Position numbers and translations under genes: made by a program
Shown: piece after piece, positions 4,419-40,612 of the stretch
Layout: every line of letters starts with the position of its first letter
Position numbering within the stretch: position 1 is the stretch's first letter
From: Nitrospira sp. MA-1
GTDB lineage: Bacteria > Nitrospirota > Nitrospiria > Nitrospirales > UBA8639
NCBI GenBank assembly: GCA_032139905.1
Contig: JAQJDB010000003.1
Coordinates: 1 to 64,000, forward strand
Direction: 5' to 3'
Length of the DNA: 64,000 bases
Notes under the pieces: generated by a model
Seen by the model: only the letters and a program-made list of their open reading frames with translations
Told to the model about the DNA's origin: nothing
The model's database searches: none

Positions 4419-4545
4419 GACTAATACCTTTGCATCCCTTCACAAAAAAATTCGACCTGTTCCCGCACCACCAGGGTGAGCGGGAAACCGATTTATCAAC
4501 AGTCCGATTGCACAAATCGATCGTCCTCCAGCGTGGAGGAGGAGG

Positions 4546-4923: not shown

Positions 4924-5226
4924 GAAGAATTTCCTTTGGATTAACAATCAAACCAGGTATGATAGTGTCAAGTGGTTTACGGCAATGTCAAGACAGATCA
5001 TGCTTCATCATAAGGTGGCATTGTGCTGGAATCATTCATTCATGCTCATGACTGACAATCAACGCAAGACTAGATAAAATCCTGCAGGTTTATTATTCTT
5101 ACGCTTTCCAACATTGAGGATGGATGTGTGGTGCAGACATGGTAGGGTATCGGCAGCAACATCCCTCTCCCGTCACAGCATAAACGCTCATCTGATATTC
5201 ACTTTCTATACATGGAGGTTCCACGA

Positions 5227-5877: not shown

Positions 5878-6104
5878 GATGACGGCTCTTTTTCCCTATC
5901 CCCGGTTGTTCCCTCCTCATCTCTCGGCTGGAGAGAACCGGTTTTGTCGTCAGGAGGTGAATCGCCACTAAACATGATGGTATCCTCACACGGAGTAGGA
6001 AATCACTCCGACTTCATCCTAAGAAGCGAACAGTTACGCTCTCATGAACTATTTATTTTTTTTACTGTCTTCATGGGTCGCTTCATTTGGAAAAGGAGTC
6101 GTTG

Positions 6105-7106
6105 ATGGAAACTACTGGTACTGAATCCTCCGTCCCTCAAGCAAATATTTTAATTGTTGAGGACGAGGAAGGTCCGCGCGAGGCCTTAAAATTAATTCTT
6201 TCTCCCTACTTCAATCTCTTTACGGTTGATCGGGCTGAAATTGCGCATCAAATTCTCAAAACCCACCCCATTGATCTCATCACCCTCGATTTAAAACTCC
6301 CTGATCTGTCAGGAAACGATCTTCTTTCTCAGATTCGGAAAGACGGGAAAGATGTGGATATCATCATCATCACCGGATATGGCACACTCCAATCCGCCAT
6401 CGAAGCCATCCGCCACGGGGTGGCCGCCTATATTCTCAAGCCATTCAATGTGGCCGAGCTGCTTGACACAATCAATAACACGCTCGATCGCCGTCGCCGT
6501 TATTCCTCCCTTCAAGCCGCGTTGCAAGCATTTGGAAGCCTTTGGGCTTCCGGGATCGATGTCAAATCCGCCCTGGCCAATATTAAAACCCTCCTGGCAG
6601 CCAAACACCCCGAACTGATTCAACATGGAAGCCGGGTGAATTTTTATGCCGCTCTGCTCATTGAACATCTTCAATTAACCAAGGAGGAGCAGGAGGGCAT
6701 ACAACTCGGGGCCTATCTCCATGACATCGGGAAAATCGGCATTCATGATCACCTCATTTCCGGACTTCATTCCCCGACGGAACAAGACCAGGAACTTCTC
6801 AAATGCCATCCCGCCATCGGAGGCAAAATGATGAAGGGCCTTCCATTTCATGCCTGTGTCGAACAGATCATCCTCCATCACCATGAAAAATTTAATGGGT
6901 CCGGATATCCGGATGGATTAATCGGCGAACAAATTCCCTTGTCGGCACGCATTGTCGGGCTGGCGAATATCTTCGATCATTTCGTGACCGGCTATGGTTC
7001 CCAAAGGGCTATGCCCGTCCCGGAAGCACGAGAAAAAATTCGCCAGGAAGCGGGCAAAAGTGTCGATCCCCATCTGGCAGAATTATTCGCGAAAGTCGTC
7101 TGGTAG
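6105..7106 (+). CDS. Response regulator with HD-GYP output domain
   Basis: 333 residues from ATG 6105 (AAAAGGAG 6091-6098). Residues ~14-130 are a receiver domain: acidic pair in VEDEEGP, phosphoacceptor aspartate in ITLDLKLPDLSG, threonine in IIITGYG and lysine in YILKPF. Residues ~165-330 are HD-GYP: YLHDIGKIGI, HHHEKFNGSGYPDGLIGE and IPLSARIVGLANIFD. Such proteins hydrolyse cyclic-di-GMP when the receiver is phosphorylated. The GYPDG signature is intact, so phosphodiesterase activity is expected. The hybrid kinase that follows 60 bases downstream is the obvious partner. Confidence 0.88.
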   Translation: METTGTESSVPQANILIVEDEEGPREALKLILSPYFNLFTVDRAEIAHQILKTHPIDLITLDLKLPDLSGNDLLSQIRKDGKDVDIIIITGYGTLQSAIEAIRHGVAAYILKPFNVAELLDTINNTLDRRRRYSSLQAALQAFGSLWASGIDVKSALANIKTLLAAKHPELIQHGSRVNFYAALLIEHLQLTKEEQEGIQLGAYLHDIGKIGIHDHLISGLHSPTEQDQELLKCHPAIGGKMMKGLPFHACVEQIILHHHEKFNGSGYPDGLIGEQIPLSARIVGLANIFDHFVTGYGSQRAMPVPEAREKIRQEAGKSVDPHLAELFAKVVW

Positions 7107-7128
7107 CGATATCAGAGGCGGGAGACAC

Positions 7129-7173
7129 ATGAGCGAACAGGAGGCGGCGGCGCTGCTGAGACACCATGACTAA
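7129..7173 (+). CDS. Short upstream ORF coupled to the histidine kinase
   Basis: ATG 7129 opens 14 codons (MSEQEAAALLRHHD) ending in TAA 7171-7173. A strong GAGGCGGGAG site precedes it, whereas the kinase ATG at 7166 has no good ribosome site of its own and lies 5 bases before the uORF stop. That arrangement fits re-initiation or translational coupling. The peptide itself has no recognisable function and may be only a translation device. Confidence 0.4.
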   Translation: MSEQEAAALLRHHD

Positions 7174-9547
7174 GAACCTTCAAGGGGCTTCAAAAATAAC
7201 CACCCCTGTGCAGTCGGTCGAGAAATGGGAGCAGGCCTTTGATGCCCTCACGGATCATGTCATGATTTTAGACAGCACAGGGACGATTGTCTGGACCAAT
7301 CGAGCCATTCGTGACCAGGTCCAACCAAAAATCGGCCCATTGGTCGGACAACATTACCGCATACCCTACTATGGAGCGACCATCCCTAAAAACCCTCCGC
7401 CATGGGAAACGGTGTTAGCAGGCGCCCTGTCTGCGGTGGTGGAAACACAGTTTCCTTCTCTCCCAGGGGATTTCCTGGTCTCATGCTACCCCCTCTTCGA
7501 CTCCAATGGCATTCAATGGGGTGCCATTTCTGTGGTTAAAGATATTACAGAACGCAAACGGATTGATGAAGCACTGCGAAAAATAGCCCAAAGTGATCCG
7601 GCTCCCGGCAGTATGGCGTTTTTGCGATTTCTGGTGAGAGATCTCTGTCAGGCCCTAAATGTGCCCTATGCCATATTAGCGGAATTGGAATCGCCGACTC
7701 ACCCGCTCACCCAAACTGTCGCCATTTGGTCCAACGGGACCTTTGGCGAGAATATGCCTTGGACGCCACCTCCCAGGATTTTTGAAGAACTTTTGAAAGT
7801 CAAAGGATGCCATGGGGACAATTTGGAATCGCCGCTCTTTCCTCCCGACTCCCCTCTCGGGTCATGGTCGATCATCAGCTATTTGGGAACGGCCCTCCGT
7901 GGCCAGACGGGACAAATTATCGGGCTCCTGTTTATCTTTAGTCCAATGGCCATTCGCAACATTCATGTGGCGCAATCCATCATTCAACTCTTTGCAGCTA
8001 GAGCGGCAGGTGAACTCCAACGTAAAAAAGCCGAAGATGCCTTGCGGGATAGTGAGCAGCGCTATCGAGCCATCGTGGAACATGCCTATGACTTAATCAT
8101 TGAAACCACCGCGACGGGTGAATGTCAGTACGTCACACCAAATTGTCTCAAGGTCCTGGGCTATGGGGCTGCCGACATGCTGGGAAAAAGTTTTTTTGAC
8201 TTTGTCCATCCCGAAGAACGGGGGCCTTTATCTGCGTCCTTTCATTCTCATCTCAAGGCACTTCAGGAAATTGATATGGTATGCCGGTTGCAAACGAAAC
8301 AGTCTGAGTGGCGATGGTTTGAAAGTCACATCCATCCCTTCCGAACCAGCGTCGGGACGGTCGTGGGCGTGATCGTGACACGAGACATCACGGAATGGAA
8401 ACGCCTGGAGGAAGAACGCATACGTGCCACCAAACTCGAGTCTGTTGGGTTACTGGCCGGCGGGATTGCGCATGATTTCAATAATATTCTCACGTCCGTA
8501 TTTGCCAATATCGGGCTGGCCAAAATGGTCACGGCCAAACATACGCCACCCCATGGAGAGAAAGTTATTGAACGACTGGAGGCGGCAGAAAAAGCCTGTT
8601 TGCGTGCGCGGGACCTTACCAAGCAACTGCTGACTTTTGCGAAAGGAGGGGCTCCGGTTAAAAGCACGACATCGGTGGCCTCAATCATTACCGACACGAT
8701 TCAATTTGCCTTACGAGGCTCTGCCGTCCGATGCACCACGCATCTTCCCGATGACCTCTGGCCGGTTGAGGTCGATGAAGGACAAATCAGTCAGGTCATA
8801 CAAAATCTTGTGATTAATAGCGACCAGGCGATGCCGGAGGGAGGCACCATTAGCGTCGTCGCAAAGAAATTTCTGGTGAACGCTCAATCCACCCTTCCTC
8901 TCAAATCCGGCAAGTATGTCTGTGTATCCGTCGCTGATCAAGGGATCGGCATTCCTGACGACCATCTCCAAAAGATCTTTGATCCTTACTTTACAACCAA
9001 ACAAAAAGGGAGCGGACTGGGCCTCGCCACGACCTATTCCATCATGAAACGACATGGAGGGCATGTGACCGTGACCTCTTCTCTCGGCCACGGCACATGC
9101 TTCACCCTGTATCTCCCCGCTTCAACCTCCCTGACGACGAAAAACGAGGAGACACCGGAAAGCCTCGTGCAAGGAACAGGACGGATTTTAGTGATGGATG
9201 ATGAAGAGGACATCCAGGATGTGCTAGGGAAAATGCTCGAGCACCTCGGATTTGACGTGGACTATACCGACGATGGGCTGAAAGCCATTGCGCTCTATAC
9301 TCGTGCCGTTCAGGACGGCAATCCCTATGTGGCCACCATTCTTGATCTCACTATACCCGGAGGAATGGGAGGGAAGGAAACGTTGCGCCTCATTAAAGAC
9401 TATGATCCAGATGCCAAAGTGATTGTTTCAAGCGGGTATTCCAACGACCCGGTCATGGCGCATGCCAGCCAATTCGGATTTTCAGGTTTTATTGCCAAAC
9501 CGTATAATCTCCTTGATCTGTCTAAAGTTTTAAGTCGTATCTTTTGA
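7166..9547 (+). CDS. Hybrid PAS-GAF-PAS sensor histidine kinase with receiver
   Basis: 793 residues, no transmembrane segments, so a cytosolic sensor. In order: PAS (about 16-130, ending SVVKDITERKR), GAF (about 150-285), second PAS (about 296-420, SEQRYRAIVEHAYDLI to VTRDITEWKR), phosphoacceptor helix with histidine ~438 in LAGGIAHDFNNIL, HATPase with N box NLVINSDQAM (~546), G1 DQGIGIPDDH (~591) and GSGLGLATTYSIMKRHGG, then a C-terminal receiver with RILVMDDEED, phosphoacceptor in ILDLTIPGG (~727), SSGYS and AKPYN. It probably phosphorylates the HD-GYP regulator encoded just upstream, linking redox or ligand sensing to cyclic-di-GMP turnover (inference). Confidence 0.9.
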   Translation: MTKNLQGASKITTPVQSVEKWEQAFDALTDHVMILDSTGTIVWTNRAIRDQVQPKIGPLVGQHYRIPYYGATIPKNPPPWETVLAGALSAVVETQFPSLPGDFLVSCYPLFDSNGIQWGAISVVKDITERKRIDEALRKIAQSDPAPGSMAFLRFLVRDLCQALNVPYAILAELESPTHPLTQTVAIWSNGTFGENMPWTPPPRIFEELLKVKGCHGDNLESPLFPPDSPLGSWSIISYLGTALRGQTGQIIGLLFIFSPMAIRNIHVAQSIIQLFAARAAGELQRKKAEDALRDSEQRYRAIVEHAYDLIIETTATGECQYVTPNCLKVLGYGAADMLGKSFFDFVHPEERGPLSASFHSHLKALQEIDMVCRLQTKQSEWRWFESHIHPFRTSVGTVVGVIVTRDITEWKRLEEERIRATKLESVGLLAGGIAHDFNNILTSVFANIGLAKMVTAKHTPPHGEKVIERLEAAEKACLRARDLTKQLLTFAKGGAPVKSTTSVASIITDTIQFALRGSAVRCTTHLPDDLWPVEVDEGQISQVIQNLVINSDQAMPEGGTISVVAKKFLVNAQSTLPLKSGKYVCVSVADQGIGIPDDHLQKIFDPYFTTKQKGSGLGLATTYSIMKRHGGHVTVTSSLGHGTCFTLYLPASTSLTTKNEETPESLVQGTGRILVMDDEEDIQDVLGKMLEHLGFDVDYTDDGLKAIALYTRAVQDGNPYVATILDLTIPGGMGGKETLRLIKDYDPDAKVIVSSGYSNDPVMAHASQFGFSGFIAKPYNLLDLSKVLSRIF

Positions 9548-27742: not shown

Positions 27743-30235
27743 ATGGCCCTCAAAAAATCCGAACTTTACTCCTCGATCTGGCAAAGCTGCGATGAACTTC
27801 GCGGCGGCATGGATGCCAGCCAATATAAGGATTACGTCCTCGTCCTCCTGTTCATCAAGTATGTCAGCGACAAATACGCCGGCATCCCCTATGCCCCCAT
27901 CGCCATCCCCGAAGGCGCATCCTTCAAGGACATGGTCGCCCTCAAGGGCAAATCCGACATCGGCGACCAGATCAACAAGAAGATCATCGCCCCACTGGCC
28001 AATGCCAACAAGCTGTCCGACATGCCGGACTTCAATAGCGCGGAAAAACTCGGCAGCGGCAAGGAGATGGTGGAGCGGCTCACCAACCTCATCGCCATCT
28101 TCGAAAACAAGGCACTCGATTTCTCAAAGAACCGCGCCGAGGGCGACGACATTCTGGGCGATGCCTATGAATACCTCATGCGCCACTTCGCCACGCAGAG
28201 TGGCAAGAGCAAAGGGCAGTTTTACACTCCGGCTGAAGTCAGCCGCATCATCGCGCAGATCATCGGCATCCATGAGGCCAAGACGACCAGCGCCACCACC
28301 GTCTATGACCCCACCTGCGGTTCAGGCTCGCTGCTCCTGAAGGTGGGCGACGAAGCCGGTACGACCGTCACGCTCTACGGCCAGGAAAAGGACGCCGCCA
28401 CCAGCGGCCTTGCCCGGATGAACATGATCCTGCACAACAACCCCACGGCGCTCATCGCGCAGGGCAACACGCTGGCCGATCCCAAGTTTATGGACGGCGG
28501 CGATACGCTCAAGACCTTCGACTATGTCGTCGCCAATCCGCCGTTTTCCGACAAGCGCTGGAGCACCGGCATCGACCCGCTCAACGACCCCTTCGAGCGC
28601 TTCCAGCCCTTCGGCACACCACCCGGCAAGCAGGGGGACTATGCCTACCTGCTGCATATCGTCCGCTCGCTAAGAAGCACGGGTAAAGGCGCATGCATTC
28701 TGCCCCATGGCGTCCTGTTCCGCGGCAACGCCGAGGCCGACATTCGCAAGAACCTCATCCGCAAGGGCTACCTCAAGGGCATCATCGGCCTGCCTGCCAA
28801 CCTCTTCTTCGGCACCGGCATCCCCGCATGCATCGTCGTCGTCGACAAACAGGACGCCCATGCTCGCAAAGGCGTCTTTATGATTGACGCCAGCGCAGGC
28901 TTCATGAAGGACGGCCCAAAAAACCGCCTCCGCTCTCAAGACATCCATAAGATTGTGGATGTCTTCAACAAGCGCCTCGAGGTCCCCAAATACGCCCGCA
29001 TGGTCTCCTTTGAGGAAATCGAAAAAAACGAATTCAACCTCAACCTCCCACGCTACATTGATAGCCAAGAGCCGGAAGACCTCCAGGACATCGAAGGCCA
29101 CCTGAACGGCGGCATCCCCAACCATGACATCGAGGCAATGGAAAAGTATTGGTCCATCTGCCCCAACCTCAAAGCCGCCCTCTTCCAACCCCTCCGCCCC
29201 AATTATTCTCAATTATCCATTATCCCTTCTCAATTGAGGTCCACGATTTATGAGCACCCGGAGTTCGCCACCTTTATCACCGGCATGAACGCCCACTTCG
29301 CCGCGTGGCGGGACAAAAGCGCCAAGACGCTGAAGGCGTTGAAGGCTGGCTGCCATCCGAAGGAAGTCATCGTCGGCCTCTCCGAAGACCTGCTTGCCCA
29401 CTACACCGGCAAACCCCTCATCAGCCACTACGACGTCTATCAACATCTCATGGACTATTGGGCCGAGACGATGCAGGACGACTGCTACTTCATTGCCGCC
29501 GACGGCTGGAAGACCGAAACCACTCGCATCATCGAGAAGGATAAGAAAGGCAAGGAGAAGGACAAGGGCTGGACCTGCGACCTCATCCCCAAGACCCTCA
29601 TCGTCGCCCGCTACTTCGCCAAGGAACAGGAAGCCATTGACCAGCTCACGGTCGAACTGGAAAGCGTCACGGCGCAAATTACCGAGCTGGAAGAAGAACA
29701 CGGTGGCGAGGACGGCGCCTTCTCCGAGCTGGAAAAGGTGAATAAGGCGTCAGTCGTGGCGCGACTGAAGGAATTGAAAATGGAGAATGGAGAATTGAAA
29801 ACGAAAGAGAAAGGTGCGGAGCATTCTCCATTTTCAATTCTCAACTCTCAATTAGCCGACGGCGAAGGCGACATTCTCAACGAATGGCTTGATCTCAACA
29901 GCCGCGAGACGGAACTCAAACGAAAGATCAAGGAGGCTGAGGCCGCGCTGGATGCCAAGGCCTACGCCCAATATCCCAAGCTCACCGAGGCCGAGATCCA
30001 GACGCTGGTGGTGGATGACAAATGGCTCGCCGCGCTGGACCGCGACATCCATGGTGAGATGGATCGCATCAGCCAGGCCCTTACCCAGCGGGTCAAGGAA
30101 TTGGCCGAACGCTACGAAATCCCCATGCCGCAGCAGGTCCGCACGGTCGCCGAACTTGAGGACAAAGTGAACCGCCATTTAGCGAAAATGGGATTTTCGC
30201 TGAATGGAGAGTTGAAAGTGGTGAATGGAAAATGA
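27743..30235 (+). CDS. hsdM: Type I restriction-modification methyltransferase subunit
   Basis: 830 residues, longer than the common 500. N-terminal helical domain (DYVLVLLFIKYVSDKYAGIP), then the adenine methylase domain with S-adenosylmethionine motif I DPTCGSGSLLLK (~189) and catalytic motif IV NPPF (~265). The C-terminal 350 residues are a helical extension (VIVGLSEDLLAHYTGKPLIS, coiled coil ELESVTAQITELEEEHGG) seen in long HsdM variants. Two AT-rich palindromic inserts lie in the reading frame (29201-29238 and 29773-29838). Its TGA overlaps the hsdS ATG. It acts with HsdS to methylate and with HsdR to cut DNA. Confidence 0.95.
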   Translation: MALKKSELYSSIWQSCDELRGGMDASQYKDYVLVLLFIKYVSDKYAGIPYAPIAIPEGASFKDMVALKGKSDIGDQINKKIIAPLANANKLSDMPDFNSAEKLGSGKEMVERLTNLIAIFENKALDFSKNRAEGDDILGDAYEYLMRHFATQSGKSKGQFYTPAEVSRIIAQIIGIHEAKTTSATTVYDPTCGSGSLLLKVGDEAGTTVTLYGQEKDAATSGLARMNMILHNNPTALIAQGNTLADPKFMDGGDTLKTFDYVVANPPFSDKRWSTGIDPLNDPFERFQPFGTPPGKQGDYAYLLHIVRSLRSTGKGACILPHGVLFRGNAEADIRKNLIRKGYLKGIIGLPANLFFGTGIPACIVVVDKQDAHARKGVFMIDASAGFMKDGPKNRLRSQDIHKIVDVFNKRLEVPKYARMVSFEEIEKNEFNLNLPRYIDSQEPEDLQDIEGHLNGGIPNHDIEAMEKYWSICPNLKAALFQPLRPNYSQLSIIPSQLRSTIYEHPEFATFITGMNAHFAAWRDKSAKTLKALKAGCHPKEVIVGLSEDLLAHYTGKPLISHYDVYQHLMDYWAETMQDDCYFIAADGWKTETTRIIEKDKKGKEKDKGWTCDLIPKTLIVARYFAKEQEAIDQLTVELESVTAQITELEEEHGGEDGAFSELEKVNKASVVARLKELKMENGELKTKEKGAEHSPFSILNSQLADGEGDILNEWLDLNSRETELKRKIKEAEAALDAKAYAQYPKLTEAEIQTLVVDDKWLAALDRDIHGEMDRISQALTQRVKELAERYEIPMPQQVRTVAELEDKVNRHLAKMGFSLNGELKVVNGK
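29201..29238. repeat. AT-rich palindromic insert in hsdM, copy 1
   Basis: AATTATTCTCAATTATCCAT followed by TCTCAATTGA, a single-arm piece of the same family as copies 2 and 3. It keeps frame in hsdM, coding NYSQLSIIPSQL. Confidence 0.6.
29773..29838. repeat. AT-rich palindromic insert in hsdM, copy 2
   Basis: ATTGAAAATGGAGAATG (29773-29789) is a perfect inverted repeat of CATTCTCCATTTTCAAT (29822-29838) with a 32-nt spacer; a less regular repeat extends to 29853. It adds residues KMENGELKTKEKGAEHSPFS in a presumed linker without breaking the frame. Confidence 0.75.
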
Positions 30236-30278
30236 AAGAGGATAATAATTCTCAACTTTCCATTATCAATTCTCCATT
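30203..30278. repeat. Palindromic insert spanning the hsdM/hsdS junction, copy 3
   Basis: AATGGAGAGTTGA (30203-30215) pairs with TCAATTCTCCATT (30266-30278) with one mismatch. The hsdM stop and the hsdS start lie inside it. Confidence 0.7.
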
Positions 30279-31515
30279 AATCCCGCCCGGCTACAAGCAG
30301 ACCGAGGTGGGAGTGATTCCGGAGGAATGGCATACGGAAGCGGTTGCTAACTTAGTGGAGCCGACAGCACCGATTTGTTACGGCGTCGTCCAAGTAGGAC
30401 AGCACACAGAAAGCGGCGTTCCGATTGTGGCGATTAAATTTGTGAAGGAGATTGCGCATGCGCCACTCCATCGAACCGCCACCAGCCTCGAACAACCTTA
30501 CGCGAGGAGCAGACCAAGAGGTGGAGACGTTCTTATCTCAATCAAAGGAACAATTGGGCGAGTCGGCATTGTTCCAAACGGATTTAAGGGAAACATCAGT
30601 CGCGAATTGGCGAGGTTGCGAATCGGCGAAGATACGAGCGCTGAATACATCGCCCATCAGCTTGAGGCAGAAGCCACTCAAGAAAGGATTATGCGGTCCG
30701 TAGTGGGAACCACGCGACTCGAATTCTCGATCGCGACTCTCCGCAAGTTTCCCCTTCCACTTCCCCCCACCAAAGAGGAACAAAAAGCCATCGCCGAGGC
30801 GTTGAGCGATGCGGATGCCCTCATCGAATCCCTGGAGCAACTCCTCACCAAAAAACGCCACCTCAAACAAGGCGCCATGCAGGAACTCCTCACCGGCAAA
30901 AAGCGCCTGCCGGGCTTTGAAATCAAACCAGGCTACAAGCAAACCGAGGTGGGGGTGATTCCGGAAGATTGGAATGTCACAAAACTCGCAGCAACCTGCT
31001 CCATGAAAAGTGGTGAGGGAATAACGAGCCCAAGCATAGATCAGTTCTCCGAGTACCCTTGTTTCGGTGGCAATGGTCTGCGAGGTTTTACTACGCGCTT
31101 CACGCACGACGGACACTATGCGCTGATCGGACGTGTTGGGGCGCTGTGCGGAAATGTATTGGGCGTAGAAGGAAAGTTTTTCGCATCGGAGCACGCAATT
31201 GTTGTGACGGCCTCCGCACGAACGGACACCCGTTGGCTTACCTTCGTGTTGGGGGAAATGCAACTCAACCACTATTCCGAATCATCTGCGCAGCCTGTTC
31301 TAACTGTCTCGAAACTTCTGAAGCTCGAGGTGGCCCACCCGCCAACCAAAGCCGAACAAGAAGCCATCGCCGCCATCCTGAGCGATATGGACGCCGAAAT
31401 CGCCGCGCTGGAAACCAAGCTAACCAAAACACGCCAGCTCAAACAGGGCATGATGCAGGAACTCCTCACCGGAAGAATTCGTCTAATCAATGAGAAAAGA
31501 GATGACGAAGACTGA
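30232..31515 (+). CDS. hsdS: Type I restriction-modification specificity subunit
   Basis: 427 residues. Two target-recognition domains, each introduced by a near-identical stretch (PGYKQTEVGVIPEEW at ~20 and PGYKQTEVGVIPEDW at ~230) and closed by a helical conserved region (LTKKRHLKQGAMQELLTGKK and LTKTRQLKQGMMQELLTGRI). The repeats mark a circularly arranged duplicated gene. The two target domains differ, so a bipartite recognition sequence is expected. The tail RIRLI is followed by NEKRDDED, an extension past the usual stop, because the next gene begins in overlap (ATGA at 31490). Confidence 0.95.
   Translation: MKEDNNSQLSIINSPLIPPGYKQTEVGVIPEEWHTEAVANLVEPTAPICYGVVQVGQHTESGVPIVAIKFVKEIAHAPLHRTATSLEQPYARSRPRGGDVLISIKGTIGRVGIVPNGFKGNISRELARLRIGEDTSAEYIAHQLEAEATQERIMRSVVGTTRLEFSIATLRKFPLPLPPTKEEQKAIAEALSDADALIESLEQLLTKKRHLKQGAMQELLTGKKRLPGFEIKPGYKQTEVGVIPEDWNVTKLAATCSMKSGEGITSPSIDQFSEYPCFGGNGLRGFTTRFTHDGHYALIGRVGALCGNVLGVEGKFFASEHAIVVTASARTDTRWLTFVLGEMQLNHYSESSAQPVLTVSKLLKLEVAHPPTKAEQEAIAAILSDMDAEIAALETKLTKTRQLKQGMMQELLTGRIRLINEKRDDED
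31444..31481 (+). repeat. HsdS-tail direct repeat, copy J1
   Basis: 38 bp, CAGGGCATGATGCAGGAACT to AAGAATTCG, the coding end of hsdS. Identical to 34189-34226. Confidence 0.9.
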
Positions 31516-34090
31516 TGTGCAAACAGATATTGTTCAGTGGCTTCACTCGCAGCCGGATTGGTTGCAGGAAGCAGCCGAGCAATTGCTGGAGCATGGGGAA
31601 CTCCATGATAAAACTATTAGGCGTCTCTCTGAGCGTCTGAAGATACTCGACGCTCAAGAGAAGACGACGCATCGCGCTTTCCCCGGCCTTGCAACGGAAC
31701 CTTCTTCCTCATGTGCTCTCAGACTGGGTTCAATTGGAGATGTTCGCGGCATTGAAAATCTATCGCCACACAAGCCACTCGACTTCGGCTTAGGGAACCT
31801 TACCGTCATTTATGGCCCTAATGGATCTGGAAAGTCCAGCTATACACGAATCCTCAAAAAGGCTTGCGGCAAACCCCGTGCAATAGATTTAAAGCCAAAT
31901 GTATTTCAAGAGCCACCCCCTCTCCGACAGTGTGAAATCACATTCACCCCGAACGGTATTAGCCCGCCGATCAAGTGGGTGGCAAACAGTTCTCCTATTC
32001 CAGGCCTTGAGCAAGTCGATATTTTTGATGGAGATGCTGCAGGTTTCTATCTCAGCGAGGAATCCGAAGTGTCGTATTCCCCTCCAGAGGTCGCCTTGTT
32101 TGAAGAACTCGCGCAGACAGTGGACAAAATCAAAGCCCTACTACAGTCAGAACAAGATCAGCTTGTTAACAAACAGCCTATCTTGCCGCCCGAATATACC
32201 AAAACACCTGCCGGTGAAACGTATCAAGCTTTAAAGCCAGGACAAACTGAAGCCAGCCTCAAAAATATTCTTGAATGGAGTGAGTGCGATCAAGCAACGC
32301 TCGATCAGCTAGCCGAACGCCTGAAGAGCGAAGATCCTGGTTCGTTGGCCAAACAGAAGCGAGCCAGAAAAAAGCAATTAGACCAAATAGCTACGGAATT
32401 AAGCATTGCTTCGTCAGCGGTTAGCAAACAGGCGTTCATACAACTGCAGGAGTTGAGAAAAACCGCAGAGGATCATCGGAGACGGGCTATTGAAGCCGCA
32501 AAAGCTAATACGGCGTCTGGCAAATTAGAGGGTATCGGTACAGATACCTGGATTGCACTCTGGGAAGCAGCCAAGGTCTATTCTACCGGTCAAGCATACC
32601 CCGGGCAGGAGTTCCCATACACTGGGGACGATGCACGGTGCGTCCTCTGCCACCAGCCGCTTGATGTCGAGGCCAAACAGAGAATGATGGAATTTGAAGC
32701 CTTTGTTCAAGGCAAAATAGAAGCCGATGCCAGGGTGGCAGAAGAGACCTATCTAAAAGCTATAGAATCGTTGCCCAGCAGGCCTTCAGAAGAAGAAATC
32801 CGCACAAGTTGCCAGGCGGCCTGGCTGAAAGAGGAAGATTGGTTGGATAAACTGAAGGGATTCTGGCAGGGCATCCAGGTCGTGTGTAATAACTACAAGA
32901 AATCGGAGTCTAGTGATGCTATCGATGCTCTTGCTGCGGCAACTGAGCTTGTGGACGTTCTAAGTACTATGTCTCAAGCACTTGAAGCAGAGGCGGTGCA
33001 ACATGAGACGGATGCAAGGCTGTTCGATCGAGAGAAGGCTCTTAATCAGAAGGTTGAATTGGAGGCGAAAAGGTTTACCAGCCAACAGGCGACGGCCATT
33101 CGAGACGAGATAGATCGGCTTGGTAAATTCAGTACCTTTGAAGAATGGAAAAAACGTGCGAATTCCAGAGAAATATCATTAAAGGCCGGCGACATTTCAG
33201 AAAAGACCATCACCAAAGCCTATGTAGAGCGCTTCAATGCAGAGCTAAGAACACTTGGTGCGGCTCGAATCAAAGTTGAACTGGTCAAGACACGCACCGA
33301 ACGGGGAAAAGTTAAGCATCGGGTTAGACTGCGGGGCGTGACGTCACACCGTGAAACCCCAGGCTCGGTGTTAAGCGATGGAGAACGGCGCGTGGTCGCA
33401 CTCGCAGCATTTCTAGCGGACGTGTCCGGAAAACACCACCATGCTCCCTTTGTGTTTGACGATCCAATATCTTCTCTGGACCATGATTTCGAGTGGGAGG
33501 TAGCAATGCGGCTTGCCATGTTAGCCAAAGACCGCCAGGTGATTGTTTTCACACACCGCCTTTCTTTATACGGTGCCATGGAAGACGCCGCAAAGAAGTG
33601 CGGCGAGGAGTGGAGGAAAGAACATCTTACTCAGCTGTGCATCGAAGCATTTGCCGGCTCGGCTGGGCATCCCGCCAAAGAGGGCGTTTGGAATGCCAAT
33701 ACCACTAAGGCCAACAACATCCTTGTCACTCGCCTGGATGAGGCCAAGAAATTCTTTAACGCCAAAGATTCAGAAAGTTACAAAATCCATGCGCAGGCTA
33801 TCTGTACGGAATTTCGGAAACTTCTTGAGCGCACTGTTGAAGATGATCTTTTAAATCAAGTGGTCAAGCGCCATCGACGTAGCGTCACAACCGATAATCG
33901 TATTACGCAGCTTCCGAAAATCACCAACGATGACTGCGCGATTATTGACGGTTTGATGACTAAATATTCGTGCTATGAGCACAGTCAATCGCAGGAAATA
34001 CCGACATTTTTACCTGATGAACCAGAACTTCGCCAAGACCTTGAAAAATTGAAGAATTGGCGAAAATCGTTCAAGGAAAGATCAGTTTAG
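31490..34090 (+). CDS. RloC-like SMC-type ATPase in the type I RM operon
   Basis: 866 residues. N-terminal Walker A VIYGPNGSGKSSYTRILK (~108), a long coiled-coil insertion whose tip carries CVLCHQPLD (~384), matching the zinc-hook CxxC, then the ABC signature VLSDGERRVVALAAFLADV (~627), Walker B FVFDDPISSLDHD (~653) and H-loop VIVFTHRLSLYG. This is the AAA_13/RloC layout, a DNA-damage-sensing ATPase with an anticodon nuclease at its C-terminus. Residues FRKLLERTVEDDLL and a later YEHS are compatible with an R-x3-E...H catalytic triad, but the E-to-H spacing is longer than in PrrC, so nuclease activity is a conjecture. It starts in ATGA overlap with hsdS. Confidence 0.8.
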   Translation: MRKEMTKTDVQTDIVQWLHSQPDWLQEAAEQLLEHGELHDKTIRRLSERLKILDAQEKTTHRAFPGLATEPSSSCALRLGSIGDVRGIENLSPHKPLDFGLGNLTVIYGPNGSGKSSYTRILKKACGKPRAIDLKPNVFQEPPPLRQCEITFTPNGISPPIKWVANSSPIPGLEQVDIFDGDAAGFYLSEESEVSYSPPEVALFEELAQTVDKIKALLQSEQDQLVNKQPILPPEYTKTPAGETYQALKPGQTEASLKNILEWSECDQATLDQLAERLKSEDPGSLAKQKRARKKQLDQIATELSIASSAVSKQAFIQLQELRKTAEDHRRRAIEAAKANTASGKLEGIGTDTWIALWEAAKVYSTGQAYPGQEFPYTGDDARCVLCHQPLDVEAKQRMMEFEAFVQGKIEADARVAEETYLKAIESLPSRPSEEEIRTSCQAAWLKEEDWLDKLKGFWQGIQVVCNNYKKSESSDAIDALAAATELVDVLSTMSQALEAEAVQHETDARLFDREKALNQKVELEAKRFTSQQATAIRDEIDRLGKFSTFEEWKKRANSREISLKAGDISEKTITKAYVERFNAELRTLGAARIKVELVKTRTERGKVKHRVRLRGVTSHRETPGSVLSDGERRVVALAAFLADVSGKHHHAPFVFDDPISSLDHDFEWEVAMRLAMLAKDRQVIVFTHRLSLYGAMEDAAKKCGEEWRKEHLTQLCIEAFAGSAGHPAKEGVWNANTTKANNILVTRLDEAKKFFNAKDSESYKIHAQAICTEFRKLLERTVEDDLLNQVVKRHRRSVTTDNRITQLPKITNDDCAIIDGLMTKYSCYEHSQSQEIPTFLPDEPELRQDLEKLKNWRKSFKERSV

Positions 34091-34098
34091 GTTAATCA

Positions 34099-34236
34099 AT
34101 GAGCATCATCAACCAGCCCAACCCCGCCATGCGGAACCACGTCGTCACCGGACTGGAAGCTAAACTGGCCAATTTCTTCCAGCTCTGGCAGGGCATGATG
34201 CAGGAACTCCTCACCGGAAGAATTCGATTAATATGA
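34099..34236 (+). pseudogene. Scar 1: HsdR N-terminus fused to HsdS C-terminus
   Basis: A 45-codon open frame reads MSIINQPNPAMRNHVVT (cf. the HsdR start SEIGQTERATQNRIIAL) joined to GLEAKLANFFQLWQGMMQEL and LTGRIRLI, the HsdS tail (cf. ALETKLTKTRQLKQGMMQEL). The last 38 bases before the stop codon are identical to the hsdS end. Its stop is in ATGA overlap with the next gene. It is a recombination remnant rather than a functional gene, though it may be translated and couple translation of the next gene. Confidence 0.85.
34189..34226 (+). repeat. HsdS-tail direct repeat, copy J2
   Basis: 38/38 identical to 31444-31481. Confidence 0.9.
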
Positions 34237-34667
34237 CCGATTCAATAAGTGAGTCAGCCATAGTACGGGCGGTCGCAGAGCAAGCGGCTCGGCGTATCAC
34301 CCGAAAGGTTATCTCAGTATTGCAAATGATGTCCGAGACGTTGGCTGGCGATGACTCCGATCTGAAAACATCCTGGGACGAGATTTGCGTACAAGTGCAG
34401 ATTGAGGCGTCCTTTTCCTGGGACGCCTACGACGAGACCGTACGACATATCGTGGAAGGACACATCGTTAAGTTGCTGAAGCACGAGCGTGAGGCGATTT
34501 GGTTGCAGACTGATGCCGGTTGGGATTGGGCCTATGAGGAATCCGCGGACCGTGAGGCTGACCCAGAAATGGATGACGACATAGTCGATTACCTTACCCG
34601 CGAGTACGTGTATGCGGAGGCTGGCCATTGGTCGAACGCACGGATCAGAGCCCTTATTGAACGATAA
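34233..34667 (+). CDS. Acidic protein of unknown function, cargo of the RM operon
   Basis: 144 residues, strongly acidic in the second half (EESADREADPEMDDDIVDYL) with helical N-terminus (SAIVRAVAEQAARRITRKVI, SVLQMM). ATGA overlap with scar 1. No recognised domain, no membrane segment and no nuclease motif. Its neighbours are defence proteins and it lies between two hsdR/hsdS scars, so a defence or immunity role is inferred by position only. The acidic tail could suit DNA mimicry or a binding partner. Confidence 0.6.
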   Translation: MTDSISESAIVRAVAEQAARRITRKVISVLQMMSETLAGDDSDLKTSWDEICVQVQIEASFSWDAYDETVRHIVEGHIVKLLKHEREAIWLQTDAGWDWAYEESADREADPEMDDDIVDYLTREYVYAEAGHWSNARIRALIER

Positions 34668-34685
34668 AGCATGAGGGACTAACCG

Positions 34686-34821
34686 TTGATCATCATCGGT
34701 CAACGCGAACGCACCAAGCAGAACTGTAGCATCGACTCGCTGGAGACTAAGGAGACAAGGCTTCCCAGCTCCAACAGGACATGATGCAAGAACTCTTAAC
34801 TGAAAGGACTCAACTGATATG
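34686..34821 (+). pseudogene. Scar 2: decayed HsdR N-terminus plus frameshifted HsdS tail
   Basis: Codons from TTG 34686 read LIIIGQRERTKQNCSID (cf. HsdR SEIGQTERATQNRII) then SLETKETR, matching the HsdS pattern LETKLTKTR. After one frameshift the tail continues ASQLQQDMMQELLTERTQLI, stop, with the DUF262 gene starting in ATGA overlap at 34819. The architecture equals scar 1 but the sequence is more diverged, suggesting an older event or a different donor. Confidence 0.8.
34775..34812 (+). repeat. HsdS-tail direct repeat, copy J3 (diverged)
   Basis: CAGGACATGATGCAAGAACT to GGACTCA, about three quarters identical to J1 and J2. Confidence 0.7.
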
Positions 34822-36771
34822 AAAATCTCGACCGTCCTTGACCACATCGATAGCGGGCACATGGCTCTGCCCGAGTTCCAGCGCGGATATGTTTGGAACC
34901 GCGATCAGGTGCGCGGATTCTTTAATTCGCTCTACCGCCGGCATCCCGTGGGTGGTTTACTGGTGTGGGCTACCGAATCCAAGACCGCCGCGCACCGTGG
35001 CGATGGCCCTTTGGCCGCCGGGGTCGTGAAGCTTCTGCTCGACGGGCAGCAACGTATGACCTCGCTCTACGGAGTGGTTCGAGGCAAGCCGCCCAAGTTC
35101 TTTGACGGCAACACGCAAGCCTTCACTGGTCTGCGCTTTCATCTGGAAACGGAGACCTTCGCCTTCTACCAGCCTTTGAAGATGCAGGATGACCCGCTTT
35201 GGATTGACGTCACTGCACTCATGAAGAAGGGGACGGCCGGGCTTGGCGAGTTCGTTACGCGGCTGAGTACGCAGGCGGCGCTGGCCCCTAAGGTGGGCGA
35301 TTACGTGGCGCGGCTGAGTGGTCTGCTCGGTGTGACCGAAATTGACCTTCATATCGAGGAAGTCTCCGGGGCTGATAAGACGCTGGATGTGGTGGTGGAC
35401 ATCTTCAACCGGGTCAACAGCGGCGGTACCAAACTCTCCAAGGGCGACCTGGCGCTGGCAAAAATCTGTGCCGATTGGCCGGAGGCTCGCGACACCATGA
35501 AGGCCAAGCTCAAAGAGTGGGGCAAGGCCGATTACCACTTCAACCTTGACTGGCTGTTGCGCTCGGTAAACACGGCGCTAACCGGTGAGGCGAAGTTCCA
35601 GTTTCTGCATGAGAAAACGGCAGAGGAAATTCAGGATGGTCTGAAGCGCGCGGTCAAACACATCGACACCAGTTTGAATCTGATCAGCGGGAGGCTGGGG
35701 CTGGACCATGACCAAGTGTTTTTCGGCCGGTTCGGGGTTCCAGTGATGGTGCGCTACCTCGACCAACGCACTGGAACGATGAACGAGAAGGAGCGCGACA
35801 AGCTTCTGTTCTGGTTCGTGCAGGCTGGGATGTGGGGACGTTTCTCCGGCTCCACGGAATCCTTCATCGATCAGGACCTGGCGGCCCTCGAAGGTGCAGA
35901 TGGCGGACTGGACAAGCTGTTGGAACAATTACGCCTCTGGCATGGCGGGCTGCGTGTAGAGCCGGGGAACTTTACCGGTTGGAGCCTCGGCGCACGATTC
36001 TATCCCGTTCTCTACCTACTCACCCGCATGGGGGAGGCGCGCGACTGGGGCACAGGTTTGCCCTTAAAAGCCAACCTCCTTGGAAAAATGAGTCGTCTTG
36101 AAGTGCATCACATTTTCCCCAAAGCGCAGCTTTATAAGCGAAAGTTTAAGAAGCCTGAGGTCAATGCGCTTGCGAATTTCTGCTTTCTCACCAAAGACAC
36201 AAACCTCGACATCAGGGATCGCCTGCCAGAGGAATACTACCTTGAAGTGGAGAAGAACCATCCGGGCGCCTTGGCATCGCAATGGATTCCGATGGACAGG
36301 GCGCTCTGGAAGATCGAGTGCTTTCGAGAATTCTTGGAGGCCCGAAAGGAATTGCTTGCGCTGGAAGTCAACCGGCGAATGGAGGAATTATTGCACGGTA
36401 ACAGTCGATGGTTGAAGGGTCCAACGGCGGCCGTCCCAACGATCGTGGGTGTTGGCGTAGGGACTAGCAGCGAAGAGGAGGACGCTCAGCTCAAAGCATT
36501 GAACGATTGGATGGAGGGCCAGAGTCTGCCGCCTGGCGCCTTGGCCTATGACTTCGCCGACCCGGCCACAGGCGAGCAAAAAGCGTTGCTTGACTTGGCT
36601 TGGCCCAACGGCATTCAGGAGGAACTCAGCCAGCCGGTTGCCGTGCTCTTGAACGAAGGCGCGGAGACGATTGCTATCGCCAGCCAGGCGGGTTATCGCT
36701 GTTTCACTTCGGTCTCTGAGTTTCAAAAGTATGTGCATGCGGAGGTCTTGGCTGAGGAGGCACTGAATTGA
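34819..36771 (+). CDS. DUF262/HNH protein (GmrSD-like type IV restriction)
   Basis: 650 residues. DUF262 at the N-terminus (STVLDHIDSGHMALPEFQRG, LLLDGQQRMTSLYG with the DGQQR motif at ~74, and DIFNRVNSGGTKLSKGD), then a C-terminal HNH-like region LEVHHIFPKAQLYKRKF with ANFCFLTKDTN at ~427-455, as in DUF1524. The single-chain fusion resembles GmrSD/BrxU, which cut modified phage DNA after NTP hydrolysis. The last 150 residues add a domain I do not recognise. It starts in ATGA overlap with scar 2 and ends in overlap with hsdR. Confidence 0.82.
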   Translation: MKISTVLDHIDSGHMALPEFQRGYVWNRDQVRGFFNSLYRRHPVGGLLVWATESKTAAHRGDGPLAAGVVKLLLDGQQRMTSLYGVVRGKPPKFFDGNTQAFTGLRFHLETETFAFYQPLKMQDDPLWIDVTALMKKGTAGLGEFVTRLSTQAALAPKVGDYVARLSGLLGVTEIDLHIEEVSGADKTLDVVVDIFNRVNSGGTKLSKGDLALAKICADWPEARDTMKAKLKEWGKADYHFNLDWLLRSVNTALTGEAKFQFLHEKTAEEIQDGLKRAVKHIDTSLNLISGRLGLDHDQVFFGRFGVPVMVRYLDQRTGTMNEKERDKLLFWFVQAGMWGRFSGSTESFIDQDLAALEGADGGLDKLLEQLRLWHGGLRVEPGNFTGWSLGARFYPVLYLLTRMGEARDWGTGLPLKANLLGKMSRLEVHHIFPKAQLYKRKFKKPEVNALANFCFLTKDTNLDIRDRLPEEYYLEVEKNHPGALASQWIPMDRALWKIECFREFLEARKELLALEVNRRMEELLHGNSRWLKGPTAAVPTIVGVGVGTSSEEEDAQLKALNDWMEGQSLPPGALAYDFADPATGEQKALLDLAWPNGIQEELSQPVAVLLNEGAETIAIASQAGYRCFTSVSEFQKYVHAEVLAEEALN

Positions 36772-39700
36772 GCGAAATTGGTCAAACCGAACGCGCCACG
36801 CAGAACCGGATCATTGCCTTGTTCCGTGATGAGTTGCACTATCGCTATCTGGACGACTGGACCGACCGCGAGGGCAATAGCAACATTGAGGAAGGGTTAC
36901 TCACCGACTACCTGACCAAAAGTGGCTATACCCCGGCACAGATCAGCAAGGCCAGCTACGATCTACGCACTGAAGCGGATAACCACAGCCGTGGCCTCTA
37001 TGGCAATAATCAGAAGGTTTACAACCTGCTGCGCTATGGCGTGCCGGTGAAGATCGAAGCAGGCAAAGTGACGGATACGGTTCAGCTCATCAACTGGAAG
37101 CGCCCGGAGCAGAATGTTTTTGCCATTGCGGAGGAAGTGACGCTCAAGGGTAACCACGAACGGCGACCCGATATTGTGCTGTATGTCAACGGCATCGCTA
37201 TTGGCTTGCTGGAGCTGAAGAACAGCCGCGTGTCAATTGGCGACGGCATCCGCCAAAGCCTATCTAACCAGCAACTCGAATTTAATGGGTGGTTCTTTAG
37301 CACGTTGCAGTTCATCTTCGCCGGTAACGACTCCGAGGGGCTACAATACGGCACCATCGGAACGCCGGAGAAATACTTCCTGAAGTGGAAGGAGGAGGAG
37401 GAGGAGGACAATACCCGCTTCAAGTTAGACAAGTACCTGCTTAAAATGTGCCGCAAGGATCGCCTTCTCGAGTTAATGCATGACTTCGTGCTCTTCGACG
37501 GTGGCATAAAGAAACTGCCACGTGCACATCAGTATTTCGGCGTCAAGGCGGCGCAGCAGCATGTGCGTCAGAAGAAGGACGGCATCATCTGGCACACGCA
37601 GGGCAGCGGCAAGAGCATCGTGATGGTTCTGCTCGCGAAGTGGATACTGGAGAACAATCCCCACGCCCGCGTCGCTATCCTCACCGATCGGGACGAACTG
37701 GACAAACAGATCGAACGGGTGTTTACCGAATCGGGCGAGGCAATCAAGCGCACCAGCAGCGGCCGTGATCTCATGCAGCAGCTCAGTCAGGCCACACCGC
37801 GACTGCTCTGTTCGCTGGTGCATAAGTTTGGCAAGAAGGGCAAGAAGACGGATGAGGAATTCAAACAATTCATCGAAGAACTGAAGTCTCAGCCATCACA
37901 TGCCGTTGGCGAGGTATTTGTCTTCGTTGACGAGTGTCATCGCACGCAGAGCGGCAGGTTGCACAAGACCATGAAAGCCCTCATGCCCAACGCTGTCTTC
38001 ATCGGGTTCACCGGTACGCCCCTGCTTAAGGAGGATAAACAGACGAGTCTTGAAGTCTTTGGTGGCTACATCCACACCTACAAATTCAGCGAGGGCGTTG
38101 AAGATGGGGTCGTGTTGGATCTCGTCTATGAGGCGCGGGACATCGATCAGCGCCTCGGCTCCGTAGACAAGATTGACGCGTGGTTCGAGGCCAAGACCAA
38201 GGGCCTCAACGACTGGCAGAAGGCTGAGCTGAAGCAGAAGTGGGGAACGATGCAGAACGTGCTCAGCTCCAAGTCGCGCATGGATCGGGTGATAAGCGAC
38301 ATTGTGTTCGACTTCAGTGTGAAGCCGCGCCTTTCCAGCGAACGTGGCAACGCCATCCTGGTCGCCTCTAGTATTTACGAGGCGTGCAAATATTTCAGCC
38401 TATTTCAAAAGACTCCCTTCAAGGGCAAATGCGCGGTGGTGACCTCCTACAATCCCTTGGCCAAGGATGTGACGCTGGAGGAAACTGGGGCGAACACAGA
38501 GACGGACAAGCAGTTCATTTTCAACATCTACTCTGAGTTGCTGGAAGAGATTGAAGCAAAGCCTGGCATGACTAAGACGGAGACCTATGAGGACTGGGCC
38601 AAAGCATTGTTTACGAAGGAACCTGCGAATATGAAGCTGCTCGTCGTGGTAGACAAGCTGCTCACTGGCTTTGATGCCCCACCCTGCACCTATCTCTACA
38701 TCGACAAGTCCATGCAGGACCATGGCCTGTTCCAGGCCATCTGCCGTGTTAACCGGCTGGATGGCGAGGACAAGGATTTCGGTTACATCGTAGATTACAA
38801 GGACCTGTTTAAGAAAGTAGAGAACGCCATCGCCGTCTATACCTCAGAGTTGGATCACAGCGCGGGGGGTGCCGATCCCGAGGTGCTGTTGCAGGATCGA
38901 CTCAAGAAAGGGAGGGAACGGCTCGACCAGGCGCTGGAAGCCCTTGGCCTGCTGTGCGAGCCGGTGGAACCGCCGAAGGGTGAGCTGGAGCACATCCACT
39001 ACTTTTGCGGCAACACGGAAATTCCAGCCGACCTGCAAGAACGGGAACCGCAACGCGCCGCGCTCTATAAGGGGACCGTGGCGCTGGTGCGCGCCTATGC
39101 GAATATCGCCGACGAACTGGAGGCCGCCGGATATAGTGAGGCCGACATCAGCCGCATCAAGCAACAGCTTGACCATTACCTGAATGTGCGGGAAATCATT
39201 CGCAAGGCCAGCGGGGAAAGCCTGGACTTGAAAGCCTACGAGGCGGACATGCGCCACCTCCTGGATACCTATATTGAAGCCGATGAACCCAGGAAGATTT
39301 CTCCCTTCGACAACATGGGTCTGTTGGAGCTGATAGTCAAGACCGGGATTGCGAATGCCATCGCTACTCAGCTTGGCGGATTGAAGGGCAACAAAAACGC
39401 CATTGCCGAGACCATTGAGAACAACGTCCGCCGTAAAATCATTAAAGAGCACCTGAGCGATCCGGCATATTACGATAAGATGTCCGCATTGCTGAATGAG
39501 ATCATTGCAGCACGCAGGTCGAAGGCCATCGAATATGAAGAGTATCTGAAGCGCATCGCCGAGTTGGCGAAAAAAGTGGAGGCCGGGCAGGCGGAGGATC
39601 TGCCTGTGCAATTGAATACGCCGGGATGCCGCGCACTCTACAACAACCTCAGGCGGGGGGCTGCCGGCAATGCGAACGCCGCTGAGACCTCCCCTTCCTA

Positions 39701-39896
39701 TGGGAACACACCACACGATGCTGTGCTGGAACTGGCAATCAAGATCGATGACACCGTCAAGCGCACCAGACCCGATGGCTGGCGAGGTGTGCAAGCCCGC
39801 GAGCGGGTCATTAAAGCGGCCTTGTATGGCATCTTGCAGAACGAGGTCGAGGTCGAACGCATTTTTCTTATCATCAAGCAGCAGAAGGAATACTGA
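36768..39896 (+). CDS. hsdR: Type I restriction-modification restriction subunit
   Basis: 1042 residues from TTG 36768 (GAGGAGGCACTGAA upstream). PD-(D/E)xK endonuclease site RPDIVLYVNGIAIGLLELKN at ~131-150, SF2 motor with Walker A WHTQGSGKS (~277), DECH box VFVDECHRTQ (~386), GFTGTPLL and the arginine-finger region QAICRVNRLDGEDKDFGY. The C-terminus is helical and binds HsdM. With HsdM and HsdS it translocates and cuts unmethylated DNA. Its first codons are the source of the HsdR part of both scars. Confidence 0.95.
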   Translation: MSEIGQTERATQNRIIALFRDELHYRYLDDWTDREGNSNIEEGLLTDYLTKSGYTPAQISKASYDLRTEADNHSRGLYGNNQKVYNLLRYGVPVKIEAGKVTDTVQLINWKRPEQNVFAIAEEVTLKGNHERRPDIVLYVNGIAIGLLELKNSRVSIGDGIRQSLSNQQLEFNGWFFSTLQFIFAGNDSEGLQYGTIGTPEKYFLKWKEEEEEDNTRFKLDKYLLKMCRKDRLLELMHDFVLFDGGIKKLPRAHQYFGVKAAQQHVRQKKDGIIWHTQGSGKSIVMVLLAKWILENNPHARVAILTDRDELDKQIERVFTESGEAIKRTSSGRDLMQQLSQATPRLLCSLVHKFGKKGKKTDEEFKQFIEELKSQPSHAVGEVFVFVDECHRTQSGRLHKTMKALMPNAVFIGFTGTPLLKEDKQTSLEVFGGYIHTYKFSEGVEDGVVLDLVYEARDIDQRLGSVDKIDAWFEAKTKGLNDWQKAELKQKWGTMQNVLSSKSRMDRVISDIVFDFSVKPRLSSERGNAILVASSIYEACKYFSLFQKTPFKGKCAVVTSYNPLAKDVTLEETGANTETDKQFIFNIYSELLEEIEAKPGMTKTETYEDWAKALFTKEPANMKLLVVVDKLLTGFDAPPCTYLYIDKSMQDHGLFQAICRVNRLDGEDKDFGYIVDYKDLFKKVENAIAVYTSELDHSAGGADPEVLLQDRLKKGRERLDQALEALGLLCEPVEPPKGELEHIHYFCGNTEIPADLQEREPQRAALYKGTVALVRAYANIADELEAAGYSEADISRIKQQLDHYLNVREIIRKASGESLDLKAYEADMRHLLDTYIEADEPRKISPFDNMGLLELIVKTGIANAIATQLGGLKGNKNAIAETIENNVRRKIIKEHLSDPAYYDKMSALLNEIIAARRSKAIEYEEYLKRIAELAKKVEAGQAEDLPVQLNTPGCRALYNNLRRGAAGNANAAETSPSYGNTPHDAVLELAIKIDDTVKRTRPDGWRGVQARERVIKAALYGILQNEVEVERIFLIIKQQKEY

Positions 39897-40612
39897 TGGT
39901 CTCGCAGATTACCCTGGGAGACATCACCGTGGATGTGGTAAAGAAGGGCATCAGGAACATCCACCTGAGCGTCAACCCTCCAACGGGCCACGTGCGAATC
40001 TCCGCGCCGCTCCGAATGGACCTCGACACCATCCGCGTCTTTGCTATTACCAAGCTCGGCTGGATCAAGAGCCAGCAGCACAAGATGTGTGAACAAGCCC
40101 GTGAAACTCCACGCGAGTATCTCAACCGTGAAAGTCATTATGTGTGGGGAACGCGCTACCTGCTAACGGTCAACGAGAGGGACCAATCACCGTCCGTCGA
40201 ATTGACGCACAACCGGATGCGTCTGCGCGTTCGCCCGGACACCGATGCGCACAAGAGGCAAACCATCATAGAGGATTGGTATCGCGCCCAGCTCAAGCAA
40301 GCCGTGGCGCCTTTGATCGCAAAATGGGAACCGCTCATCGGCGTGAAGGTGAAGCAGTTTTTTGTACAGCGCATGAAGACCAAATGGGGTAGCTGCAACC
40401 CGGTTGCGCGCAGTATTCGCCTCAACTCCGATCTCGCCAAGAAACCCCAGGAATGCCTTGAATACATCGTGGTTCACGAAATGGTTCACTTACTTGAATC
40501 GACGCACAACGCTCGTTTTGTCTCACTCATGGACCGATTTATGCCCAAGTGGCAGTTCTATCGGGACCAGCTCAACCGCCTCCCGGTTCGCCATCAACAT
40601 TGGGGATATTAA
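39896..40612 (+). CDS. YgjP-like zinc metallopeptidase (DUF45)
   Basis: 238 residues, overlapping the hsdR stop (TGATG). N-terminal beta domain and C-terminal HExxH motif VVHEMVHLLESTHNARF followed by a distal glutamate region, typical of DUF45/YgjP. Such genes commonly close type I RM operons, where the role is unknown. Residues MKTKWGSCNPVARSIRLNSD are the conserved core before the zinc site. Confidence 0.88.
   Translation: MVSQITLGDITVDVVKKGIRNIHLSVNPPTGHVRISAPLRMDLDTIRVFAITKLGWIKSQQHKMCEQARETPREYLNRESHYVWGTRYLLTVNERDQSPSVELTHNRMRLRVRPDTDAHKRQTIIEDWYRAQLKQAVAPLIAKWEPLIGVKVKQFFVQRMKTKWGSCNPVARSIRLNSDLAKKPQECLEYIVVHEMVHLLESTHNARFVSLMDRFMPKWQFYRDQLNRLPVRHQHWGY

Follow-up and report, generated by a model that had tools for sequence, protein, structure and literature searches.

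Type I restriction-modification (RM) operons are known to carry accessory defence genes, among them the rlo genes, RloF, PrrC, TgvAB and DarTG2; the rlo genes (R-linked open reading frames), RloF and DarTG2 sit between hsdS and hsdR (PMC12255303, PMC11411939, PMC4619093, PMC5183652, PMC12707154). This site has been termed a potential recombination hotspot (PMC12255303; also PMC11411939, PMC4619093, PMC5183652). We analysed a type I RM operon in a 64-kb stretch of DNA from Nitrospira sp. MA-1 (JAQJDB010000003.1, positions 1 to 64,000; the window, to which coordinates refer unless another locus is named). Like the rlo-type operons, it holds defence cargo inside the operon. The rlo-type literature, in the excerpts available, describes the cargo without hsdR or hsdS remnants between stacked cargos and without a stacking mechanism. 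In the window, a short chimera of the start of hsdR and the end of hsdS, here called a scar, follows both the first and the second cargo gene. We consider it very probable that the scars are fossil traces of recombination that took place, out of register, between separate copies of type I restriction operons.

Nested defence genes are common in type I RM operons, and how they are acquired and accumulated is not settled. Cargo between hsdS and hsdR is already known; for joins of an R start to an S tail, or for a route of cargo stacking, we found no earlier description in the open-access literature searched. The remnants record which partners were joined in the past and that hsd loci within one genome exchange DNA, and an hsdR start followed by an hsdS tail is a concrete signature that can be searched for across genomes.

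Chimeric remnants between the cargo genes

By Pfam and PADLOC profiles, hsdM, hsdS and hsdR are all intact and form a single type I RM operon, with three cargo genes in the hsdS-hsdR interval as in rlo-type hsd operons. Its features, in order, are:

27743..30235, + strand: hsdM, 830 aa, intact (Pfam N6_Mtase 334 bits, PADLOC MTase_I 1253 bits)
30232..31515, + strand: hsdS, 427 aa, intact (Pfam Methylase_S 98 bits), with tail repeat families D1/D2
31490..34090, + strand: cargo 1, 866 aa, PDC-S06/RloC-like ATPase (PADLOC PDC-S06 1049 bits, Pfam AAA_13 63 bits)
34099..34146, + strand: scar 1, left half, ~16 codons of an hsdR start (MSIINQPNPAMRNHVV; R profile 8.1 bits)
34147..34236, + strand: scar 1, right half, ~28 codons of an hsdS end, ATGA with cargo 2 (S profile 59.4 bits)
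34233..34667, + strand: cargo 2, 144 aa, no known family, sole cargo in loci L028 and L034
34686..34735, + strand: scar 2, left half, ~16 codons of an hsdR start (LIIIGQRERTKQNCSI; R profile 24.6 bits)
34736..34822, + strand: scar 2, right half, decayed and frameshifted hsdS end, ATGA with cargo 3 (S profile 36.9 bits)
34819..36771, + strand: cargo 3, 650 aa, GmrSD/DUF262 of the PADLOC HEC-05 type, GmrSD domain N-terminal (Pfam GmrSD_N 86 bits, HEC-05 146 bits)
36768..39896, + strand: hsdR, 1042 aa, intact (HSDR_N, SWI2_SNF2, PADLOC REase_I 1439 bits), starting at a TTG (36768) that overlaps the cargo 3 stop

Scar 1 (34099-34236) reads open over 45 codons (MSIINQPNPAMRNHVVTG/LEAKLANFFQLWQGMMQELLTGRIRLI). 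Scar 2 (34686-34822) begins with TTG and loses its frame after ~22 codons. The conserved C-terminal tail of hsdS (~31402-31488) represents the type from which the scar tails derive: bases 31444-31481 of hsdS are identical to 34189-34226 of scar 1 (38 bases), and the operon holds four copies of the HsdS tail (mid-hsdS, hsdS end, scar 1 and scar 2) in repeat families D1 and D2. The original prediction, of about 16 HsdR codons followed by about 28 HsdS codons, the 38 shared bases, an open scar 1 and a frameshifted scar 2, stands in all these points, and scar 2 is present where it was placed, except that its end moves from 34821 to 34822. Both scars close in an ATGA with the next cargo gene, as had been claimed. 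The claim that hsdS ends in the same way does not hold: the hsdS frame continues beyond the place of the ancestral ATGA, as far as 31515, and overlaps cargo 1 (ATG 31490) by 26 nt, versus 4 nt in the scars.

We compared the operon with two sets of hsd and cargo loci, denoted by L numbers (the window locus is the operon in the 64-kb stretch, and WIN-1 is scar 1). The first was selected by HsdR and comprises 80 loci; both ends are visible in 65 loci (window included). The second was retrieved with a 45-aa chimera as query from ~1,970 genomes, a total in which some genomes appear twice. Loci were thus picked by similarity to the window HsdR or to the chimera, and frequencies among them are not population estimates. 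DNA profiles of the R start and the S tail were made from the 65 loci, with the opposite strand of the same loci (775 kb) as the null. Null maxima were -2.0 bits (R start) and -7.0 bits (S tail), against 8.1/59.4 bits for scar 1 and 24.6/36.9 bits for scar 2. These scores confirm, at the level of sequence, that the scars join an HsdR N-terminus to an HsdS C-terminus.

The left half of scar 2 shows directly what it once was. In L034 (Acetobacteraceae; 58% identity) and L028 (Desulfatitalea; 65%) a cargo 2 relative alone separates hsdS from hsdR, and the cargo2-hsdR junctions of both loci align with the window from the end of cargo 2 through the left half of scar 2, including a ATGAGGGA(C/T)T motif just 5' of the start codon. 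The alignment fades ~48 nt into hsdR, where the window becomes hsdS tail. The left half of scar 2 is therefore a former hsdR start, and the R-like codons, whose match to HsdR starts had been in question, continue a real junction. In both scar 2 (compared with L034/L028) and L093 (with L097), the left half follows on from the cargo gene as hsdR does at the native junction, and the right half of the scars is an hsdS tail that closes in ATGA with the next gene.

The tail had been expected to be confined to hsd operons, and searches of the 80 loci with protein profiles of the R-start and S-tail parts gave no match on opposite strands or in downstream flanks; two decayed S tails were noted on plasmids without annotated hsd genes. 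In L100 (Photobacterium damselae plasmid pPDD-Na-1-4, 6900-7120), a decayed HsdS tail lies immediately 5' of a DUF262 gene, with no annotated hsd genes nearby; this cargo may have outlived its operon. Profile matches at L050 (a mis-set hsdS end) and L019 (2.3 bits only) were set aside, and a match at L064 (8446) is doubtful.

Loci with and without scars

One genome (G1264, of the same order as Nitrospira sp. CR1.2) contains both states. Its L097 locus has the order M-S-Kiwa-R, and its L093 locus the order M-S-Kiwa-[51 nt R start/S tail]-GmrSD-like gene-R stub-R. From the S tail through Kiwa to the R start the two loci are 93% identical, stopping at R codon 17; the L093 S tail behind this R start is 81% identical to the L097 S tail, and the final hsdR genes are 91% identical. 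Blocks of 150-300 nt that are 100% identical lie amid otherwise ~90% identity and show that L093 and L097 have recently exchanged DNA. A locus without the scar and a locus with it thus coexist within one genome. The Kiwa cargo at both loci is a KwaA-like/KwaB pair between hsdS and hsdR, in a Nitrospirales genome.

The second comparison is with L003 (Nitrospiraceae), which matches the window from the end of hsdS through cargo 1 to scar 1 (96% over 2.9 kb), the scar 1 frame being open in both. Similarity breaks off at the end of scar 1 and restarts at the first bases of hsdR. Between these points L003 has a 103-aa gene, a second R-start/S-tail scar and a PDC-S02 gene, in place of the window's cargo 2, scar 2 and GmrSD. 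The PDC-S02 gene is the sole cargo in six further loci (L014, L017, L040, L052, L067 and L076). Together with L028/L034 and L093/L097, and the joins themselves, these comparisons support the earlier claim that cargo from several hsd operons, as judged from sequence, has been stacked in one operon.

Comparable remnants span several phyla; the similar scars that had been suggested as a search target do occur elsewhere. Among the 65 loci, hsdS directly abuts hsdR in 13, and in 52, the window among them, the interval would accommodate cargo. The HsdR-selected set yielded remnants in L003, L007, L010, L038, L045 and L053, and the chimera query in L083, L084, L089, L093, L094, L098, L099 and L103. 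Further R-start/S-tail joins are L003 scar 2, L083, L098 and L099; R-start stubs occur in L007, L045 and L085, with a second one in L093; and S-tail relics occur in L010, L038, L053, L084, L089, L094 and L103. Joins of three kinds were seen: an R start may meet an S tail or, as in L045, the end of a different cargo, and in L053, L038 and L010 a cargo end runs into an S tail ahead of hsdR. The R part is 16-17 codons long in five joins, ~27 in L083 and 43 in L099, and the S part ranges from 28 to ~50 codons, which argues for several independent events. Chimeras of one build and polarity thus occur at several places, and their left half continues real cargo-hsdR junctions.

The survey also turned up unusual arrangements of the same elements. 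At L099 (4980-5230) the scar is split by ~170 nt of a palindromic GGGTTCAGA... repeat, with a second S-tail copy behind it. At L102 (G1653:C1:3504500-3520500, reverse complement 3230-7180) an HsdS tail is followed by six more copies of its end before an HsdR-like start, five of the six being arrayed in tandem over 232 nt along with a repeat that codes for GFWTPAIPAGVTAP. L104 (G1861:C4:666000-680000), from a genome in the class of Methanosarcina, has two tandem hsdS ahead of hsdR.

Origin of the scars

The R half is closer to a foreign than to the resident hsdR in WIN-1, L003-1, L003-2, L083-a, L083-b, L098-a and L093-b, most clearly in L083 and L098; for scar 1 the nearest hsdR starts, all foreign, are those of L062, L064 and L034. 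This fits recombination between different hsd operons, and not local duplication as a general route.

In such an event, operon one would supply M, S, cargo A and the first ~16 codons of R, and operon two all that follows from late hsdS (S tail, cargo B and R); the product would keep both cargos, separated by a short R-start/S-end chimera, and a single complete set of M, S and R. The join could have come about by crossover, either between loci or with imported DNA that pairs with the operon at some other homologous stretch, or by deletion within a tandem array. A single out-of-register crossover, whether between different molecules or ectopic in one genome (as L093/L097 may illustrate), would yield the same product as a tandem deletion. 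The extra S tail could then serve as a homology stretch permitting exchange of the cargo behind it, and could be retained as the carrier of the next gene's ribosome-binding region and ATGA stop-start; it probably persists as that gene's translation start. A more far-reaching version, which we regard as doubtful, makes the hsdS end a self-copying docking site at which each acquisition would leave a new tail giving homology and a translation start. Were this version true, type I RM operons could stack and swap defence genes without any integrase.

Several observations weigh against recombination between different operons as the source of the scars. Single-cargo hsdS-cargo-hsdR loci, which the original prediction had proposed to look for, were found for cargo 2 (L028, L034) and not for cargo 1 or cargo 3, and the plasmid relatives that were inspected lie outside hsd operons. 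The S-tail relics of L084 and L094 have no hsdR start in front. In L093-a and L099-a the resident hsdR is nearest to the R half, so that simple local duplication would fit too. Most R halves are only 48-51 nt long, which makes the ranking of parents, themselves taken from a sample, noisy. Clear microhomology at the breakpoints could not be demonstrated with the available parents, which share 0-2 nt of exact bases, with 6-9 nt of local-alignment overlap in L093 and L099. Exact microhomology at the joins found no clear support: 6-10 nt matches between hsdR starts and hsdS ends are common, and R codon 16/S codon -3 is only one of several sites.

A leader or relay role of the scars is plausible from their sequence features, and is compatible with a fossil origin. 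In its strong form the chimera is kept as a small functional minigene that relays ribosomes between cargo genes, its peptide being irrelevant; we think this possible, while leaning against it. Each minigene would start after the upstream stop and carry an ATGA at its own end, and a gene starting at the ATGA follows nearly every scar or relic tail. A GGAAGG-like site ~11 nt upstream of the start is largely kept, scar 1 is open in the window and in L003, and the frame is kept across seven of the nine joins (P = 0.008 for an expected one third; the test is post hoc, and the nine include two that are not R/S joins of the classic type). The ratio of relic to functional tail matches rises towards the ATG (0.74, 0.88, 0.90, 0.95, 1.04), a gradient of preservation that fits leader function but is also affected by the positions of the joins. 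On the other side, scar 2, L003 scar 2, L083 and L099 have frameshifts or stops, and the differences between window and L003 in scar 1 alter the protein about as often as not.

The original prediction derived the scars from whole hsd operons in tandem, by a deletion that began early in one copy's hsdR and ended late in the hsdS of the copy behind it. This would give exactly the build observed and would account for R halves unlike the resident hsdR, and to that extent the proposal holds up as possible; we nonetheless judge it unlikely, since no tandem array of the window hsd family occurs among the 80 loci, the window's genome has one full HsdR of that family only, and the long tandem intermediate required is unseen. 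Tandem arrays could be short-lived.

We rate as more improbable still a local tandem duplication of the S tail-cargo-R start interval, after which one of the two cargo copies diverged or was replaced. One short duplication would suffice, the R halves in L093 and L099 are nearest the resident hsdR, and S tails are locally duplicated in L089 and L102, but no scar was seen with homologous cargos on both sides. As a general model, purely local duplication was rejected, the flanking cargos being unrelated and the R halves often matching foreign hsdR better (above all in L083 and L098). That the scars are chance resemblances or assembly artefacts has next to no probability: the left halves are short and decayed, but the null profile scores, the same placement of scar 1 in independent assemblies (window and L003) and the L034/L028 alignment already refute it.

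Cargo genes

Cargo 1 is an RloC-like ATPase with an AAA_13 match, a Walker A (GPNGSGKS at 109), a CxxC (CVLC at 384), an RxxxE (at 776) and a later His. It may be an anticodon nuclease of the RloC type, which would combine an SMC-type ATPase and zinc hook with a nuclease domain at the C-terminus. No matches to it were found on viral contigs.

Cargo 2 and its relatives are 144-aa acidic, mostly helical proteins, encoded at:

34233-34667: cargo 2 of the window
297-731 of L028: cargo 2 relative
9549-9983 of L034: cargo 2 relative

Searches gave no credible family match for cargo 2 and no copies on plasmids; its predicted fold is helical (mean pLDDT 68), with no Protein Data Bank (PDB) match of E below 0.6. 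We regard it as a candidate defence or RM-control gene. Scars of this kind point to such unannotated defence candidates, cargo 2 being the sole hsdS-hsdR gene in two distantly related bacteria.

Neighbouring features

Within 29201-30292, where hsdM ends and hsdS begins, lies an AT-rich 35-nt repeat (ATTCTCAATTATCCATT...) coding for an HsdM insert (LKMENGELKTKEKGAEHSPFSILNSQ) whose conservation in L003 is poor. The same region contains an inverted repeat with perfect 19-nt arms (29771-29789/29822-29840). Downstream, a YgjP-like metallopeptidase gene (39896-40612) shares one base with the end of hsdR.

Comparison with known recombination processes

Two known processes resemble what we propose for the scars. 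In homology-facilitated illegitimate recombination during natural transformation, one homologous anchor is combined with one illegitimate join; it would insert a donor S-tail-cargo-R segment beside a resident R start, and differs in that the window scars have no proven anchor or microhomology. In hsdS domain shuffling, recombination at conserved hsdS segments yields mosaics. The difference there lies in what is acquired: in the operons described here, the hsdS end would be the entry point for new genes and not for new target-recognition domains.

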